In this document: one piece after another, positions 8,785-14,907 of the stretch
Position numbering within the stretch: the stretch's first letter is position 1
Layout: each line of letters opens with the position of its first letter
Assembly (NCBI GenBank): GCA_030154445.1
Contig: JAGUQW010000001.1
Span: 1 to 34,264, forward strand
Length of the DNA stretch: 34,264 nucleotides
Direction: 5' to 3'
From: Spirochaetota bacterium
Lineage (GTDB): Bacteria; Spirochaetota; Brevinematia; Brevinematales; Brevinemataceae
The notes under the pieces: generated by a model
The model's input: the letters and a program-made list of their open reading frames with translations, nothing else
Told to the model about the DNA's origin: nothing
Database searches by the model: none
Made by a program: the position numbers and the translations under genes

Positions 8785-9417
8785 ATGTTCAAATTTATAC
8801 TTACATTTGTATTCTTATCACTCTATGCTATAACTAATCTTTTTGCCATGAAGCCTAAAGCACCACCTATTCCAAAATCATTAGTCATTTTCAATTCAAT
8901 AAAAACTGATACTAAGAAACAGATAATATACCACGAATCTGTTCCTATAATTGCAGAAAATTCTAATCAAAAATCATTAAGTATTCAATCTTTTTTTTCT
9001 TTTAACGAAATCACAGGAAATTCTTTTTTTCAAATGAAACTCTATTATGATAAACCATCTGCAGACTCTATATCTAATACGGTGTTTGAAGAACCATCCA
9101 AAAGTACGATAGAATATTTTGATCCATTCTCTATAGCTTTTATATTTAATAATAATAAAAAATTTATTCCTATCATTAAATCATCTACTTCACTAATAAC
9201 TGATTCACAAGCGTCATGTATAGGAAGTATTTATCTCTTCCAGGATGATATATCTAATTTTAGATTTAATAGAGATAGTGGTAAACCTATCTTAAATGTC
9301 ATCTTAAAAAACAATAAAGAAGAAGAAATTATATTATCTTTTTCTGATCAAGATATAATAATTTTAGCAGCTATATTAAATTTTTATAAAAATTTACATC
9401 AGTATTATACTAAATAG
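8785..9417 (+). CDS. Small exported protein of unknown function
   Basis: This 210-residue protein has a signal peptide (MFKFILTFVFLSLYAITNLF, probable cleavage after Ala22) and a GGAG SD close before the ATG. The mature chain starts with a Pro/Lys-rich segment (MKPKAPPIPKS) and continues as a mostly beta-looking domain, without cysteines needed for a lipobox or any catalytic motif I know. Residues ~175-200 (hydrophobic, then LNFYKNLHQYY) could be a short amphipathic helix. It is last in the plus-strand group that starts at 7444, and its stop overlaps by eight bases the stop of a convergent minus-strand gene, with no terminator between them. Confidence 0.6.
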   Translation: MFKFILTFVFLSLYAITNLFAMKPKAPPIPKSLVIFNSIKTDTKKQIIYHESVPIIAENSNQKSLSIQSFFSFNEITGNSFFQMKLYYDKPSADSISNTVFEEPSKSTIEYFDPFSIAFIFNNNKKFIPIIKSSTSLITDSQASCIGSIYLFQDDISNFRFNRDSGKPILNVILKNNKEEEIILSFSDQDIIILAAILNFYKNLHQYYTK

Positions 9418-9760
9418 TAGGTATTCCTTTTTGAGGCACTGTATACCTATAGTTCAAGGCGTCTCCTGACCAAAAATTCTTATTTGTTATTATCAACACT
9501 TCATTTTGATGATTTTTATTACCATAATAGGGAGTTTCAACAATAATATTTTGGTTAGTTGATCGTGGCATTTTTATAATTTCATTGAATTCTTTAATAA
9601 AAATTTTTTTGGAACTACTTGATAAAAAATAACTTCTATTTTCCATAAAAATATACATTCCTCCTAATATTAGTGGAAATGATATACTAAACATTATTAT
9701 GAATATTTTGACATGTTCTTGCCCAAAAAATATTTTCATTCTTAACAATATGATTTTCAT
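9410..9760 (-). CDS. Small single-pass membrane protein
   Basis: This 116-residue protein of unknown function has one clear TM segment at about residues 18-37 (IFIIMFSISFPLILGGMYIF). The short basic cytoplasmic N-terminus and the following ~75-residue soluble part indicate an N-in, C-out bitopic protein. The SD is good (AAGGATG, four to six bases before the ATG at 9760). It is oriented away from the ABC-transporter unit that starts at 9906, and their upstream regions share about 145 bases. A functional link to that unit is possible but only inferred from position. Confidence 0.55.
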   Translation of the reverse strand: MKIILLRMKIFFGQEHVKIFIIMFSISFPLILGGMYIFMENRSYFLSSSSKKIFIKEFNEIIKMPRSTNQNIIVETPYYGNKNHQNEVLIITNKNFWSGDALNYRYTVPQKGIPTI

Positions 9761-9792: not shown

Positions 9793-9821
9793 TAGACAAA
9801 AATATAATTTCATAATATAAT
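9793..9821 (+). promoter_or_regulatory. Promoter for the ABC-FtsX-BatBC unit
   Basis: Plus-strand TAGACA (9793-9798), 17-base spacer, TATAAT (9816-9821), giving a leader of about 78 bases. Confidence 0.5.
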
Positions 9822-9905
9822 AATAACATTATACCTATTATTTTATCGACAACTATTTCTATTTCCTAATGATCTGATCCAAATTTATTGACAATTGGAG
9901 GCATC

Positions 9906-10586
9906 ATGATTGTTCAAATAAGCAATTTATCAAAAAAAATACCAGATGGTTCTTTTCAAAGAACTTTATTAGATGATATTAGTTTGACTATTCAAGAAAA
10001 TGAGATTGTTGCTCTTGTAGGAACATCGGGTGCTGGTAAAACAGCTTTGTTACGCTCATTATCTTGTTTGGAAGTTGTACACACTGGTGAATATCTCTTT
10101 AACGGTTCTATACAAATAGTGAATTTACCTGAATCTGGATTAGCTAATATGAGAAGATTATATATGGGATTTATAGGATTTGAACCAGAATTCATTGAAC
10201 ACATGACTGTAAAAGAATGTTTAGATATGCCTCTTTCTGCTCTTTCTATATCATATAATGAGAGAAAAAATCGTGTTATTGATATTTTAGAGGTTATTGG
10301 ACTTGTTTCCAAATTAAATACCCCTATTTCATCTCTACAATATTATGAAAGAATATATATTGCAGCAGCTCGAGCTTTTATAAAAAAACCTCTTCTTGTA
10401 GTTGCTGACAATCCATGTAAACAATTACATTCATCAGAAGCTCATGCGTTTTTAGAATTATTAACTACCCTTTCTAGAGAATACGGTGGAGCATTAGTTT
10501 ATTCTACTTATGATCCTGCACATTTAAAAAAAGCTAATAAAATCATATATATGAAAGATGGTAAAATTATAAAAGCAACATCGTGA
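9906..10586 (+). CDS. LolD-like ABC ATPase with degenerate catalytic motifs
   Basis: This 226-residue protein has the size and layout of LolD/MacB/FtsE-type nucleotide-binding subunits, and it precedes a matching permease by 21 bases. I use ATG 9906 because GGAGG lies 4 bases upstream; a TTG at 9888 would place the SD inside the gene. Walker A is intact (GTSGAGKT, 39-46). Almost everything needed for hydrolysis is altered. The signature LSGGQ reads LQYYE (144-148), the Walker B end DEP reads DNP (Asn169 for the catalytic Glu), and the D-loop is unrecognisable (KQLHSS). The switch His is Tyr202 (STYDP), and the Q-loop Gln is Phe in GFIGF. The reading frame is clean, so this is not simple decay. 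It may bind ATP without turning it over, acting as a regulated gate or scaffold. Confidence 0.8.
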   Translation: MIVQISNLSKKIPDGSFQRTLLDDISLTIQENEIVALVGTSGAGKTALLRSLSCLEVVHTGEYLFNGSIQIVNLPESGLANMRRLYMGFIGFEPEFIEHMTVKECLDMPLSALSISYNERKNRVIDILEVIGLVSKLNTPISSLQYYERIYIAAARAFIKKPLLVVADNPCKQLHSSEAHAFLELLTTLSREYGGALVYSTYDPAHLKKANKIIYMKDGKIIKATS

Positions 10587-10607: not shown

Positions 10608-13118
10608 ATGAAAAAAAATAAAATTATTATTCCTAAAAATACTTTTCGCTTATCATTTCAAACTAAATTCTTTGTATACAGTATATCAATTATTCTTATC
10701 TCTTTACTATTTATTACTTTTACTATTCTTGAAGGAATTTATTTTGATATCAAAAAAAATATTACTCAAAATTATAATTCTCATTTATCAGTATCAGCAG
10801 TCAATTATTCGCCTCATACAGCTCAAGATCTATCATCGTGGTGGATTACCCCCTCGGCTAATTTAGAGAATCCTCAGAATCAAACATCCCTTAGAGCAAT
10901 AACAAAAAGATCTGTTATGTCTGCTGTTTATCAAACTTCAACTCAACAATTTCCTATTCAATTAACATTATTAGATAATAATGATAGTGGAATCTTTAAT
11001 AATTTTATGTCTCCTACAACTACAGGTACTTTAATTCGAAAAAACAGCATACACATTGGTAAAAAACTTGCGCAAAGGCTCAATCTCAAAGATGGTGATA
11101 CATTTCCAATGTACATCCCTAGTTTAAATTATACGGCGACAAATATCAAAGTATCCTATATTTATAACTCACCAGATCATTTTAATGATAACTACGGCGT
11201 ATATCTAAATAGACAAACATTTCAAGAATCACTTGATTCCAAATTTCAAAAATATCATATTCGTTTTTACGCCTCTCCTTTTATATCTTTACTCGAGTCT
11301 GATATTACACCTATTATTTCAGAAAATCCTAAAAAATATGCAGATGATTTACTTAATTATCAATATTTACAACTAAATACTATTAAAAAAAATATCACTA
11401 AATGGAGCTATTTTTTTTATTTTTTATGTGGTATTTTGTTATTTCTAAGTATGCATCACCGATATTCTCTTATCGTTAAAGATGTAAATAGTTATACTTA
11501 TAAAATAGGTTTTATACCTACTCTGCAGCCTCATTTCAAAATATTATTAAAAGTATTTTTTCAATTGATCACTATTAGTATTAGTGCTTGTATTGTATTA
11601 TTTATTTTTATCAAGATAGATCCCTATATTTCTTCTATGTTATTTCTACAAGACAATCCTATTTTTCCAGAATTAAATTTACCCCTAACTTATCAATTTG
11701 ATCCTAAAATACCCGATATTATTTTTCTAAATATTATTCCTATAGGAACATTAATAGGAATGATATCTTTCGGATTGATGATGTTTATTTATTCTATTCT
11801 GCCTAATTTTTCTGACTCACAAAACAAACCTAGTTATATTGCTATAGGATTTATTATTGTTGCTATTCTTGGATTTACAAGTGCAAATGGCTATCTCTAT
11901 AATAGTTTTGCTGATCAAACCCGTCAAAAATATTGGACTCAATATTTTTTTGGTAAATATTCTCTTTATGAAAAAAATTACCTACATTATAATGCTCTAA
12001 GAGTATCACCACAAGACTTTATTATTCCTTCAGATTTACTTATAATGCTACAAGAAAATCCTATACAATACATGACTACTTTAGAAGTATTTGGAACAGC
12101 GTCTATACATTCTTCGTCAAATATAGAAGAGGATGAATTTGTAGAAAAAAAAATGAAAAAAAATGTCTCTATCAAAGCCTTACAAGGTAATCTTATGCAA
12201 TTTTCAAACATTTTACTTCCCTTACTATCTAATCAGATAGTAATTGGCAAAGATGTTGCTGATTATTTTCTTAGTAATAAAATTCTTAATCTTAGTTTTG
12301 AAAAAGATTTTTATTTTAATAAAAATATCAATACAAGTTCAAATATGTCTTTAGACAACACCAACACAGATACAATTACTGATACCTTCAATATTACCAA
12401 TAATCTTGTCAATGCAAGTTCAGATATGTCTTTAGATAACACTAATACAAATATTACTAATCAAATTTTTATCGTAGCACATATTGTTGATTTGCCTGTT
12501 GGAGATTTCAATAATACTATTTTTATCAACCAAACTAATTTAGCAGAAATATTAAAAATTAAGCCTAATAGTATTACCAAATTACAAAGTTCTGGATTAA
12601 AAAAAGTATTATCTCGCTATACTAATAACGATATTATACTAACGCCTATACAACAAAATATTCTACAATGGAAACAATTAACAAATCTAGTAATGACTAG
12701 CTATTTCATATCAGTATTATTACAAACTTTTATTTCTGCCATGTTAATTTTATCAGTCATATTATATTTAAATACTATTGATAAAAATCTTTTAATTAAT
12801 TATTATATATGGGGAATTCCTTATGATCCTCTTAAAAAATATAGTTTAATTGCTATGGCTAGTTTTATTGTAGGAATTTTTGTGGCATGGTTATCTAAGC
12901 TACTTCTTGTTATTAGACCTAATTCTATTCCGGAATTTTTACAAATTTTAAGATTTACACCCAAGCAATTAGCTTTTTCTATTGATTGGGGTTCTACTTT
13001 CTTAATATCCATAGGAAGTATTTTTATTTTCACAATAGTATATTTTATATTTAATAAAATACTAAAAAACAATACAAAAAATATGATCAAATATCTTTTT
13101 AAAGATCAACATTCATAA
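10608..13118 (+). CDS. Double FtsX/MacB-type ABC permease (8 TM)
   Basis: This 836-residue inner-membrane protein partners the ATPase just upstream. Its predicted TM segments are at about 21-43, 266-284, 312-336, 370-397, 409-431, 694-722, 743-768 and 793-818. Two large outside domains (44-265 and 432-693) each follow the first helix of a group of four. This is the LolC/MacB layout (1 TM, periplasmic domain, 3 TM) repeated twice, so one chain could form the whole membrane part instead of the usual dimer. No strong SD precedes the ATG, so translation may be coupled to the ATPase. The second outside domain carries a Thr/Asn/Ser-rich insert with an internal 27-residue duplication (about 577-620). 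The family moves lipoproteins or peptides, or signals to the cell wall; the substrate is unknown here. Confidence 0.75.
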   Translation: MKKNKIIIPKNTFRLSFQTKFFVYSISIILISLLFITFTILEGIYFDIKKNITQNYNSHLSVSAVNYSPHTAQDLSSWWITPSANLENPQNQTSLRAITKRSVMSAVYQTSTQQFPIQLTLLDNNDSGIFNNFMSPTTTGTLIRKNSIHIGKKLAQRLNLKDGDTFPMYIPSLNYTATNIKVSYIYNSPDHFNDNYGVYLNRQTFQESLDSKFQKYHIRFYASPFISLLESDITPIISENPKKYADDLLNYQYLQLNTIKKNITKWSYFFYFLCGILLFLSMHHRYSLIVKDVNSYTYKIGFIPTLQPHFKILLKVFFQLITISISACIVLFIFIKIDPYISSMLFLQDNPIFPELNLPLTYQFDPKIPDIIFLNIIPIGTLIGMISFGLMMFIYSILPNFSDSQNKPSYIAIGFIIVAILGFTSANGYLYNSFADQTRQKYWTQYFFGKYSLYEKNYLHYNALRVSPQDFIIPSDLLIMLQENPIQYMTTLEVFGTASIHSSSNIEEDEFVEKKMKKNVSIKALQGNLMQFSNILLPLLSNQIVIGKDVADYFLSNKILNLSFEKDFYFNKNINTSSNMSLDNTNTDTITDTFNITNNLVNASSDMSLDNTNTNITNQIFIVAHIVDLPVGDFNNTIFINQTNLAEILKIKPNSITKLQSSGLKKVLSRYTNNDIILTPIQQNILQWKQLTNLVMTSYFISVLLQTFISAMLILSVILYLNTIDKNLLINYYIWGIPYDPLKKYSLIAMASFIVGIFVAWLSKLLLVIRPNSIPEFLQILRFTPKQLAFSIDWGSTFLISIGSIFIFTIVYFIFNKILKNNTKNMIKYLFKDQHS
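12334..12450 (+). repeat. 81-bp tandem duplication inside the permease gene
   Basis: Two copies of a segment starting CAAGTTCAAATATGTCTTTA or its near twin (12334 and 12415) are offset by exactly 81 bases (27 codons). They encode SSNMSLDNTNT and SSDMSLDNTNT. The copies differ by a few mostly silent bases, so the duplication is in frame and not brand new. Confidence 0.8.
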
Positions 13119-13134
13119 ATTACAGGAGTACTAT

Positions 13135-14907
13135 ATGTTATTTGTTAACATTTCTCAAGCACCTTTCATTATTGGATTAATTATAATCCTGTTAGGGGTT
13201 ATTATCTTTACCATATACCGTCAACACAAATTAAGACTCTTCTTTTTTTCTAAAGAACAACAAAAAGTGATTCATAAAAGAAATTTCAAAGGAATCAAAA
13301 CTACAAAAAATATTTGTTTAGCTATTATTACAGTATTACTTGGTGTTTCTTTGTTAGATCCTAGAGGAAGTTCTCTTTCTTCAGATTTACAATTAGAAGG
13401 AATAGATGTAATTTTAGTCTATGATATTTCTCGAAGTATGGATGCCACAGATGTTGCTCCTAGCCGTTTGTCATTCGCTAAAAATTTGGGAGAACAATTA
13501 ATTGATTCTCTTGCAGGTAATCGTATGGCCCTTGTTGCTTATGCAGCTGAAGCTATTAGATTACTTCCTCTTACAACAGACTCCAGTAGTGTTGATTTGT
13601 TTGTAAGAGAATTATCAACTGATATGATCAGTTCACAAAGTACAGATATAGGAAAAGCATTAGATGAAGCACTCAAAAATTTTACTGAAGATACGCTTAC
13701 TCACAAAGCGATTGTTCTTTTTAGTGATGGAGAAAATCTCGATGGAAATGTAAAAAATGCTATCGATACTATCAAACAACAAGGTATCTCTATTTTTATT
13801 ATAGGTGTTGGCACAGAAGAAGGTGGCTCTATCCCTATAATCGATAAAAGAACAGGTCAAGAGACTTATATGAAAGATCTATTAGGAAAAAACATTATTA
13901 CAAAATTAGATCCCAAATATCTTCAAAATCTTGCTACTCAAAGTAAAGGAGAATATGTCTATGGATCACGAACATCCATGACCAAAATAGAAAGCCTCAT
14001 CAGTAATATAGAAAAAAATCCTTTTGGAAACAATACTATAAGTTATTTGGAACCTCAATTTCGTATATTTATATTACTAGCATTACTTGCCTTAATTTTG
14101 TATTTGTTTTTACCTGATAAAAAATGGTACAAACAATTATCATTACTAGTTGTATTTTTATTTTCAACAGTACCGAGTTATACCTTGACCAAAGAGAGAC
14201 AAGCTTACAGCTCTTATCAAAATGGAGAATACTCTACAGCATTACGCTTTTTTCAACGCAGTCTTGTACAAAATCCACAAAATATAAAATCCAAATTTGG
14301 GGAAGCGTCTACATTATACAAATTAGAGCGTAATGACAGAGCTGAAAAATCATTTTTAGCTTTAACGAATAGCACAGATCTTCAAATAGCTCAAAAATCT
14401 ACTTTTAACGCTGGAAATACCCAAGTTCAAAGAAAAGAATTTGACGAAGCTTTGGACTTATATAAAAAAGTAATGGCTGATAATCCTATTGATTCTCGAC
14501 TATATAAAAAAGCATTAAACAATTATATTTATACTAGGGCATTACAACAACAGAAGCAACAGCAACAACAAGAGAATGATCAGAAAAATGATCAAGACCA
14601 ATCTGGTGAAGGGCAGAAAGGAAAAGGACAAGACAGTAAAGAGCAAGACGGTGACAAAGGTGATCAACAAGATAAAGCAGAGCAAGGTAAGGGTGATGAG
14701 GGCAAAGCTGAAGAGGCAGACCAACAAGAGGCAGGAGCTAATGGCACTAATGACCAACAAGAAGGTGAAGGTCAAAACGCTCCTGCAAAAAGTGTCAGTC
14801 CTAGTGATATAGATAATCTTCTGGGGATTGCTCAAAAGTCAGAAAACGATAATTTTTCTAAACAACACAAACAGAAAAAAGGACTCTTACAACAAAATAA
14901 ATACTAA
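13135..14907 (+). CDS. Fused BatB-BatC: membrane VWA protein with TPR domain
   Basis: This 590-residue inner-membrane protein is of the Bat (aerotolerance) family. It has TM helices at ~11-27 and ~58-75, then a von Willebrand A domain (~90-290) with an intact metal site: D97-x-S99-x-S101, Thr170 and Asp198 (FSDGEN). Two more TM stretches (~309-326 and ~332-349) are followed by TPR-like helices (~355-465: AYSSYQNGEYSTALRFFQRS, then a second pair with EALDLYKKV). The extremely polar tail is a Gln run and then Lys/Asp/Glu/Gln/Gly repeats. BatB and BatC are usually separate genes; here they look like one polypeptide. AGGAG lies six bases before the ATG, 16 bases after the permease, so it is the third gene of the unit. 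The family's molecular role is poorly defined, and no batA is in view. Confidence 0.85.
   Translation: MLFVNISQAPFIIGLIIILLGVIIFTIYRQHKLRLFFFSKEQQKVIHKRNFKGIKTTKNICLAIITVLLGVSLLDPRGSSLSSDLQLEGIDVILVYDISRSMDATDVAPSRLSFAKNLGEQLIDSLAGNRMALVAYAAEAIRLLPLTTDSSSVDLFVRELSTDMISSQSTDIGKALDEALKNFTEDTLTHKAIVLFSDGENLDGNVKNAIDTIKQQGISIFIIGVGTEEGGSIPIIDKRTGQETYMKDLLGKNIITKLDPKYLQNLATQSKGEYVYGSRTSMTKIESLISNIEKNPFGNNTISYLEPQFRIFILLALLALILYLFLPDKKWYKQLSLLVVFLFSTVPSYTLTKERQAYSSYQNGEYSTALRFFQRSLVQNPQNIKSKFGEASTLYKLERNDRAEKSFLALTNSTDLQIAQKSTFNAGNTQVQRKEFDEALDLYKKVMADNPIDSRLYKKALNNYIYTRALQQQKQQQQQENDQKNDQDQSGEGQKGKGQDSKEQDGDKGDQQDKAEQGKGDEGKAEEADQQEAGANGTNDQQEGEGQNAPAKSVSPSDIDNLLGIAQKSENDNFSKQHKQKKGLLQQNKY

Follow-up and report, generated by a model that had tools for sequence, protein, structure and literature searches.

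The window analysed, a stretch of 34,264 nucleotides from a member of the Brevinemataceae (Spirochaetota), contains three consecutive genes on the forward strand. They encode a degenerate ABC nucleotide-binding domain (NBD) of 226 amino acids (positions 9906-10586), a permease of 836 amino acids (10608-13118) and a BatB-BatC-type VWA-TPR membrane protein of 590 amino acids (BatBC; 13135-14907). The NBD frame opens with an ATG at 9906 and stays intact over 226 codons up to position 10586, and the Shine-Dalgarno sequence GGAGG (9897-9901, forward strand) can be read just upstream of the start codon, in agreement with the initial annotation of this gene. The spacing is 21 nt between the NBD and permease genes and 16 nt between the permease and batBC genes. 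A gene for a single-helix protein of 116 amino acids, which is conserved across the four Brevinemataceae genomes (55%, 35% and 31%), is located divergently just upstream (9410-9760, reverse strand) and overlaps the end of the gene that precedes it, so that the three-gene operon probably has its own promoter. A promoter-like site, TAGACA-17-TATAAT, matching the consensus at 11 of 12 positions, was located upstream of the operon (9793-9821, forward strand) by a consensus scan only and is thus to be regarded as putative. The 116-aa protein itself yielded no family match. Further upstream, a secreted-looking protein that was assigned to no family is encoded at 8785-9417 (forward strand); its position is conserved, with 26-34% identity between relatives, and it may belong to the function of this neighbourhood.

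By its Pfam, NCBIfam and PDB matches, the 226-aa protein is classified as an ABC nucleotide-binding domain of the LolD/MacB type. It matched the Pfam family PF00005 (ABC_tran) with 60.1 bits (cut-off 25) over residues 22-171, and the two features of the ABC fold, a Walker A sequence (GTSGAGKT) and the Walker B aspartate (in the dipeptide AD), are invariant in four orthologues. The top NCBIfam model was LolD (TIGR02211), although the score of 135.6 bits is far below the equivalog cut-off of 307.75, by which the protein does not qualify as a LolD. The best PDB relatives were chains of the E. coli LolD protein (phmmer, E 1.9e-29, residues 2-222), and the nearest named relative, which is 87% identical, comes from an uncultured Brevinema MAG. 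A canonical LolC-LolD pair is encoded separately in the same genome.

The phmmer alignment of the NBD with LolD contains one single-residue gap, placed before the Q-loop, and the signature, Walker B and H-loop all lie in ungapped stretches; the motifs are therefore in register, and a shift or misalignment of these motifs was ruled out. The Walker A sequence GTSGAGKT (10020-10043) is intact. In the Q-loop segment (10167-10193), the LolD sequence GFIYQFHHL reads GFIGFEPEF and the glutamine is replaced by Phe92. The signature LSGGQ has become LQYYE (10335-10349), with the LolD sequence LSGGERQRVAIARA, in which the signature itself reads LSGGE, corresponding to LQYYERIYIAAARA in the NBD. The Walker B sequence LLVVADNP (10392-10415) retains Asp168, whereas the catalytic glutamate is replaced by Asn169, and the adjoining D-loop CKQLH (10416-10430) stands in place of TGNLD or TANLD, so that ADEPTGNLD of LolD corresponds to ADNPCKQLH with a histidine for the D-loop aspartate. 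In the H-loop STYDP (10503-10517), VTHD of LolD reads STYD, the switch histidine being replaced by Tyr202. All four of these replacements in the signature, the catalytic position, the Q-loop and the H-loop had been named in the initial annotation. They are found here in a register-true alignment, with the restriction that the change from DEP to DNP applies to the protein of the window and not to the family as a whole. To these losses must be added that of the A-loop tyrosine, since KRY of LolD reads KKI in the NBD (Ile12, 9939-9941).

The NBDs tabulated from the order all have a canonical or near-canonical signature, glutamate and histidine, with the sole exception of the NBD and its orthologues. 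The genome encodes 20 full ABC_tran domains, of which the NBD of the window alone lacks both a recognisable signature and the Asp-Glu pair of Walker B; these features are present in the remaining 19. As judged by these motif comparisons, the degeneracy of the NBD is above chance level.

Orthologues of the NBD are present in all of the four Brevinemataceae genomes considered (G000, G001, G002 and G003), the other three proteins being 56-87% identical to that of the window, and the evidence from orthologues rests on these four known sequences. The motif losses are common to all of them and thus real, and the agreement of three other genomes rules out a sequencing error. None of the four has the LSGGQ of an active ATPase, with LQYYE replaced by LPFPE in G003, or its complete set of glutamate, glutamine and histidine. 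The glutamine and histidine positions are occupied by phenylalanine and, in four of four orthologues, tyrosine, and the catalytic position varies, with asparagine in G000 and G001, aspartate in G002 and glutamate in G003. The Walker A sequence together with the next four residues (GTSGAGKTALLR) is invariant at 12 of 12 positions, compared with 56% overall identity. The replacement segments are themselves nearly invariant in the family, with GF(I/L)GFEPEF in the Q-loop (eight of nine residues fixed) and STYDPxHLKKA in the H-loop (10 of 12).

The NBD is under strong purifying selection that is comparable to that acting on the working LolD of the genome, as the dN/dS values calculated for the pair G000 and G001 were 0.117 for the NBD (dS 0.66, unsaturated) and 0.104 for the canonical LolD. 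A pseudogene was ruled out by these values. In the phylogenetic tree, the four orthologues group together with full support (100/100), the stem leading to them being long (2.14 changes per site) and the tips short, which indicates that the change happened once and that constraint came after. No orthologue of the NBD was found outside the Brevinemataceae among 393 genomes of the phylum, and the nearest match from outside the family that was read (L127) has canonical motifs. These data suggest that the common ancestor of the four orthologues had already lost the signature, Q-loop, histidine, D-loop and A-loop and that the catalytic glutamate was eroded last, from glutamate to aspartate and then to asparagine, presumably because this residue no longer mattered. 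If this order is correct, hydrolysis had probably already been lost in the ancestor.

The initial annotation had assigned a matched permease to the NBD, and the neighbouring gene does encode a partner of the LolC/E type; what had been missed is that this protein is a fused double permease, that it has lost the coupling motif and that it lies in an operon with batBC. Profile comparison with hhalign indicates that the 836-aa protein is a head-to-tail, in-frame fusion of two LolC/E-type permeases. Half 1 (residues 1-404; 10608-11819) matched a set of 19 LolC/E/MacB-type permeases with a probability of 99.0 (E 3.3e-18, 378 columns), and half 2 (residues 405-836; 11820-13118) matched LolC/E-type permeases moderately, with a probability of 87.5 (E 3.6e-6, 297 columns); controls with reversed sequences and unrelated membrane proteins reached at most 2.5 for half 1 and 1.0 for half 2. 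A profile of the four permease orthologues also found LolC/E-type permeases of about 410 amino acids across the phylum by means of its N-terminal half. The hydropathy profile and the secondary structure prediction both fit a unit that occurs twice and in which, as in LolC/E, one helix is followed by a periplasmic domain and then by three helices; the two units amount to eight predicted transmembrane helices and two periplasmic domains. No match to the Pfam families FtsX or MacB_PCD was found in the permease, a PDB profile search with it gave no matches, and full-length orthologues were not found outside the Brevinemataceae among 296 genomes. An AlphaFold model of the whole permease was of low confidence (pLDDT 35). 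A model of the C-terminal half (pLDDT 52) had chains of LolC/E, FtsX, YtrF and MacB as top Foldseek matches (E at least 0.27), a result that is not independent evidence since the underlying alignment contained LolC/E-type rows. Half 2 carries a low-complexity insert (12309-12464, forward strand) with repeated SSxMSLDNTNT in the predicted periplasmic domain, which is absent from G002 and G003.

In permeases of the LolCDE/MacB class, the segment EIGxLKAxG after the second helix is the part that contacts the NBD. A motif of this type was sought after TM2 in both halves of the fused permease and is absent from both, the corresponding regions being located at 11454-11522 in half 1, according to the hhalign pairing with the canonical sequence ERFHEIGVMKCIG, and at 12765-12833 in half 2, according to an alignment of 22 rows. 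Motor and transmission have thus degenerated in parallel, the motor motifs being lost from the NBD and the coupling motifs from the permease.

The third protein of the operon contains VWA and TPR domains according to Pfam and is orthologous to the BatBC proteins found throughout the order, with full-length orthologues in 11 other genomes. It resembles the BatB-BatC fusion of Leptospira biflexa, which belongs to the BatABCD aerotolerance cluster of spirochaetes (PMC3557215). The cluster differs in that, wherever the region upstream of batBC could be read in other families of the order, an ABC module of this kind was not found and other genes are located there instead. In G002 and G003, the NBD, permease and batBC genes overlap or almost do so; the contig of G001 stops inside the permease gene, short of any batBC copy. 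By gene order, NBD, permease and batBC make up a compact operon that is confined to the Brevinemataceae, and the three genes are presumably co-expressed. The module seems to have joined batBC in the ancestor of this family. As a side observation, a batA-like VWA gene (L067, 6399-8373) is located on a different contig from the batBC gene of its genome, and the MoxR and DUF58 genes are found elsewhere again in that genome, indicating a scattered Bat cluster.

The findings are best explained, with a probability of roughly 0.6, by a repurposed and vertically conserved type VII ABC complex of the Brevinemataceae that would be non-hydrolysing, nucleotide-gated or structural in its action and tied to the Bat system. 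A single fused double-permease polypeptide would presumably be mounted on two copies of the LolD-derived NBD, a stoichiometry of two NBDs per permease being likely. These NBD copies are predicted to be unable to hydrolyse ATP, as had been proposed initially, and this prediction is well supported by the loss or drift of the elements of hydrolysis under purifying selection. The nucleotide-binding role that had likewise been proposed is consistent with the retained Walker A sequence and Walker B aspartate, from which it follows that nucleotide binding has probably been kept, even with the A-loop aromatic residue lost. Binding and release of the nucleotide, or plain structural support, would then stand in for the hydrolytic cycle, and it is possible that the NBD acts as a sensor or gate. 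In the cell envelope, the complex would most likely cooperate with BatBC, not by pumping but by serving as a scaffold or as a transmitter gated by nucleotide; its link to Bat function is speculative and is based on the gene order in three genomes. A more far-reaching proposal, which is somewhat less likely than not, is a hydrolysis-free type VII ABC complex, in which a whole ABC system with hydrolysis disabled in both sites and in both coupling regions would have been maintained by strong selection to serve the Bat VWA-TPR system as a scaffold or as a switch that works by binding only.

The alternative that best withstands these data, although unlikely, is a purely structural pseudo-ATPase without functional nucleotide binding that completes both fold and assembly of the fused permease. 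The Walker A loop doubles as a structural element of the P-loop fold, and the loss of the A-loop aromatic residue could weaken nucleotide binding, so that Walker A would be kept for the fold only; the disappearance of the Q-loop, signature, D-loop and histidine and of the coupling motifs in both permease halves is in line with such a role. The strict conservation of the Walker A lysine and threonine and the residues that follow, at a site where the remainder was free to change, and the retention of the Walker B aspartate argue against it.

An NBD that still acts as an ATPase through a non-canonical site, for example by means of the conserved FEPEF, STYDP and KQLH segments, is improbable. The serine and glycine residues of the signature contact the gamma-phosphate, and both are gone in four of four orthologues. 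Conservation of the replacement residues speaks for such a site, yet the catalytic residue drifts between glutamate, aspartate and asparagine, none of which shows signs of being selected over the others. In G003, which retains the catalytic glutamate, an unusual route to trace hydrolysis is conceivable.

Slightly less credible still is a heterodimer of the NBD and an active ATPase from another locus, a pairing that the initial annotation had offered as its alternative. Heterodimeric ABC systems that combine a degenerate site with a consensus site are familiar (PMC7756269), among them the asymmetric exporters. The whole genome was searched with the NBD protein, PF00005 and PF02687 for a partner, but no unpaired type VII ATPase, and hence no partner NBD providing one complete site, was found; the canonical FtsX-type permeases of the genome number only two, and both have a canonical ATPase of their own next to them. 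Moreover, each site of an ABC dimer combines Walker A, Walker B, the glutamine and the histidine from one subunit with the signature contributed by its partner. A mixed dimer would consequently contain one site without a signature and another without glutamine, glutamate and histidine, leaving no consensus site according to the motif positions, and the coupling motif is lost in both permease halves rather than in one. Decay of the gene towards loss in a reduced genome is very improbable, given that the frames are intact in four genomes, the dN/dS of the NBD equals that of LolD and the motifs are invariant after the stem change, despite the small genome (1.5 Mb) and the fast evolution of the permease (dN/dS 0.27-0.51).

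The non-hydrolysing complex favoured here shares features with several known systems and differs from each of them. It has the LolD-like NBD and LolC/E-like permease layout of LolCDE but lacks the signature, glutamine, glutamate, histidine, D-loop and A-loop residues of LolD as well as EIGxLKAxG, and its permeases are fused. With FtsEX and other type VII mechanotransmission systems it shares the permease fold class, and type VII complexes that transmit conformational changes instead of transporting a substrate have been described (PMC11466899, PMC11627006); FtsE differs in being a working ATPase with canonical motifs, whereas the NBD of the window is devoid of motor residues. Heterodimeric exporters, such as TM287/288, TAP, MRP/CFTR and BSEP, likewise contain one NBD with a replaced glutamate, histidine or signature, which may bind ATP without hydrolysis, but they keep one full consensus site (PMC7756269). 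The system of the window would have none, either as homodimer or as mixed dimer, and the transmembrane fold of the exporters is unlike that of its permease. In the open-access literature, which was covered to a limited extent, no precedent was found for a pseudo-ATPase of the ABC type or for a type VII system that is degenerate throughout. The original observation is right and stronger than first stated.

A degenerate ABC site usually has a working site as its counterpart. A system without any possible working site, under constraint as tight as that on an active LolD, would offer a natural way of testing what an ABC complex achieves through nucleotide binding alone. The conservation of the NBD, as strict as that of a working motor, suggests a nucleotide-binding switch or anchor and not an engine. 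The complex is also a concrete candidate partner for the Bat proteins of spirochaetes, for which no specific role had been shown by experiment (PMC3557215).

A further gene region was noted in a genome of a related family (G005; L021, 2020-8244), where genes for a LolA_like protein, a barrel-like protein, a canonical ATPase and three LolC/E-type permeases are located beside dapF. The ATPase of this region is among the closest canonical relatives of the NBD, and a dapF gene is also located 3 kb downstream of the operon in the window.
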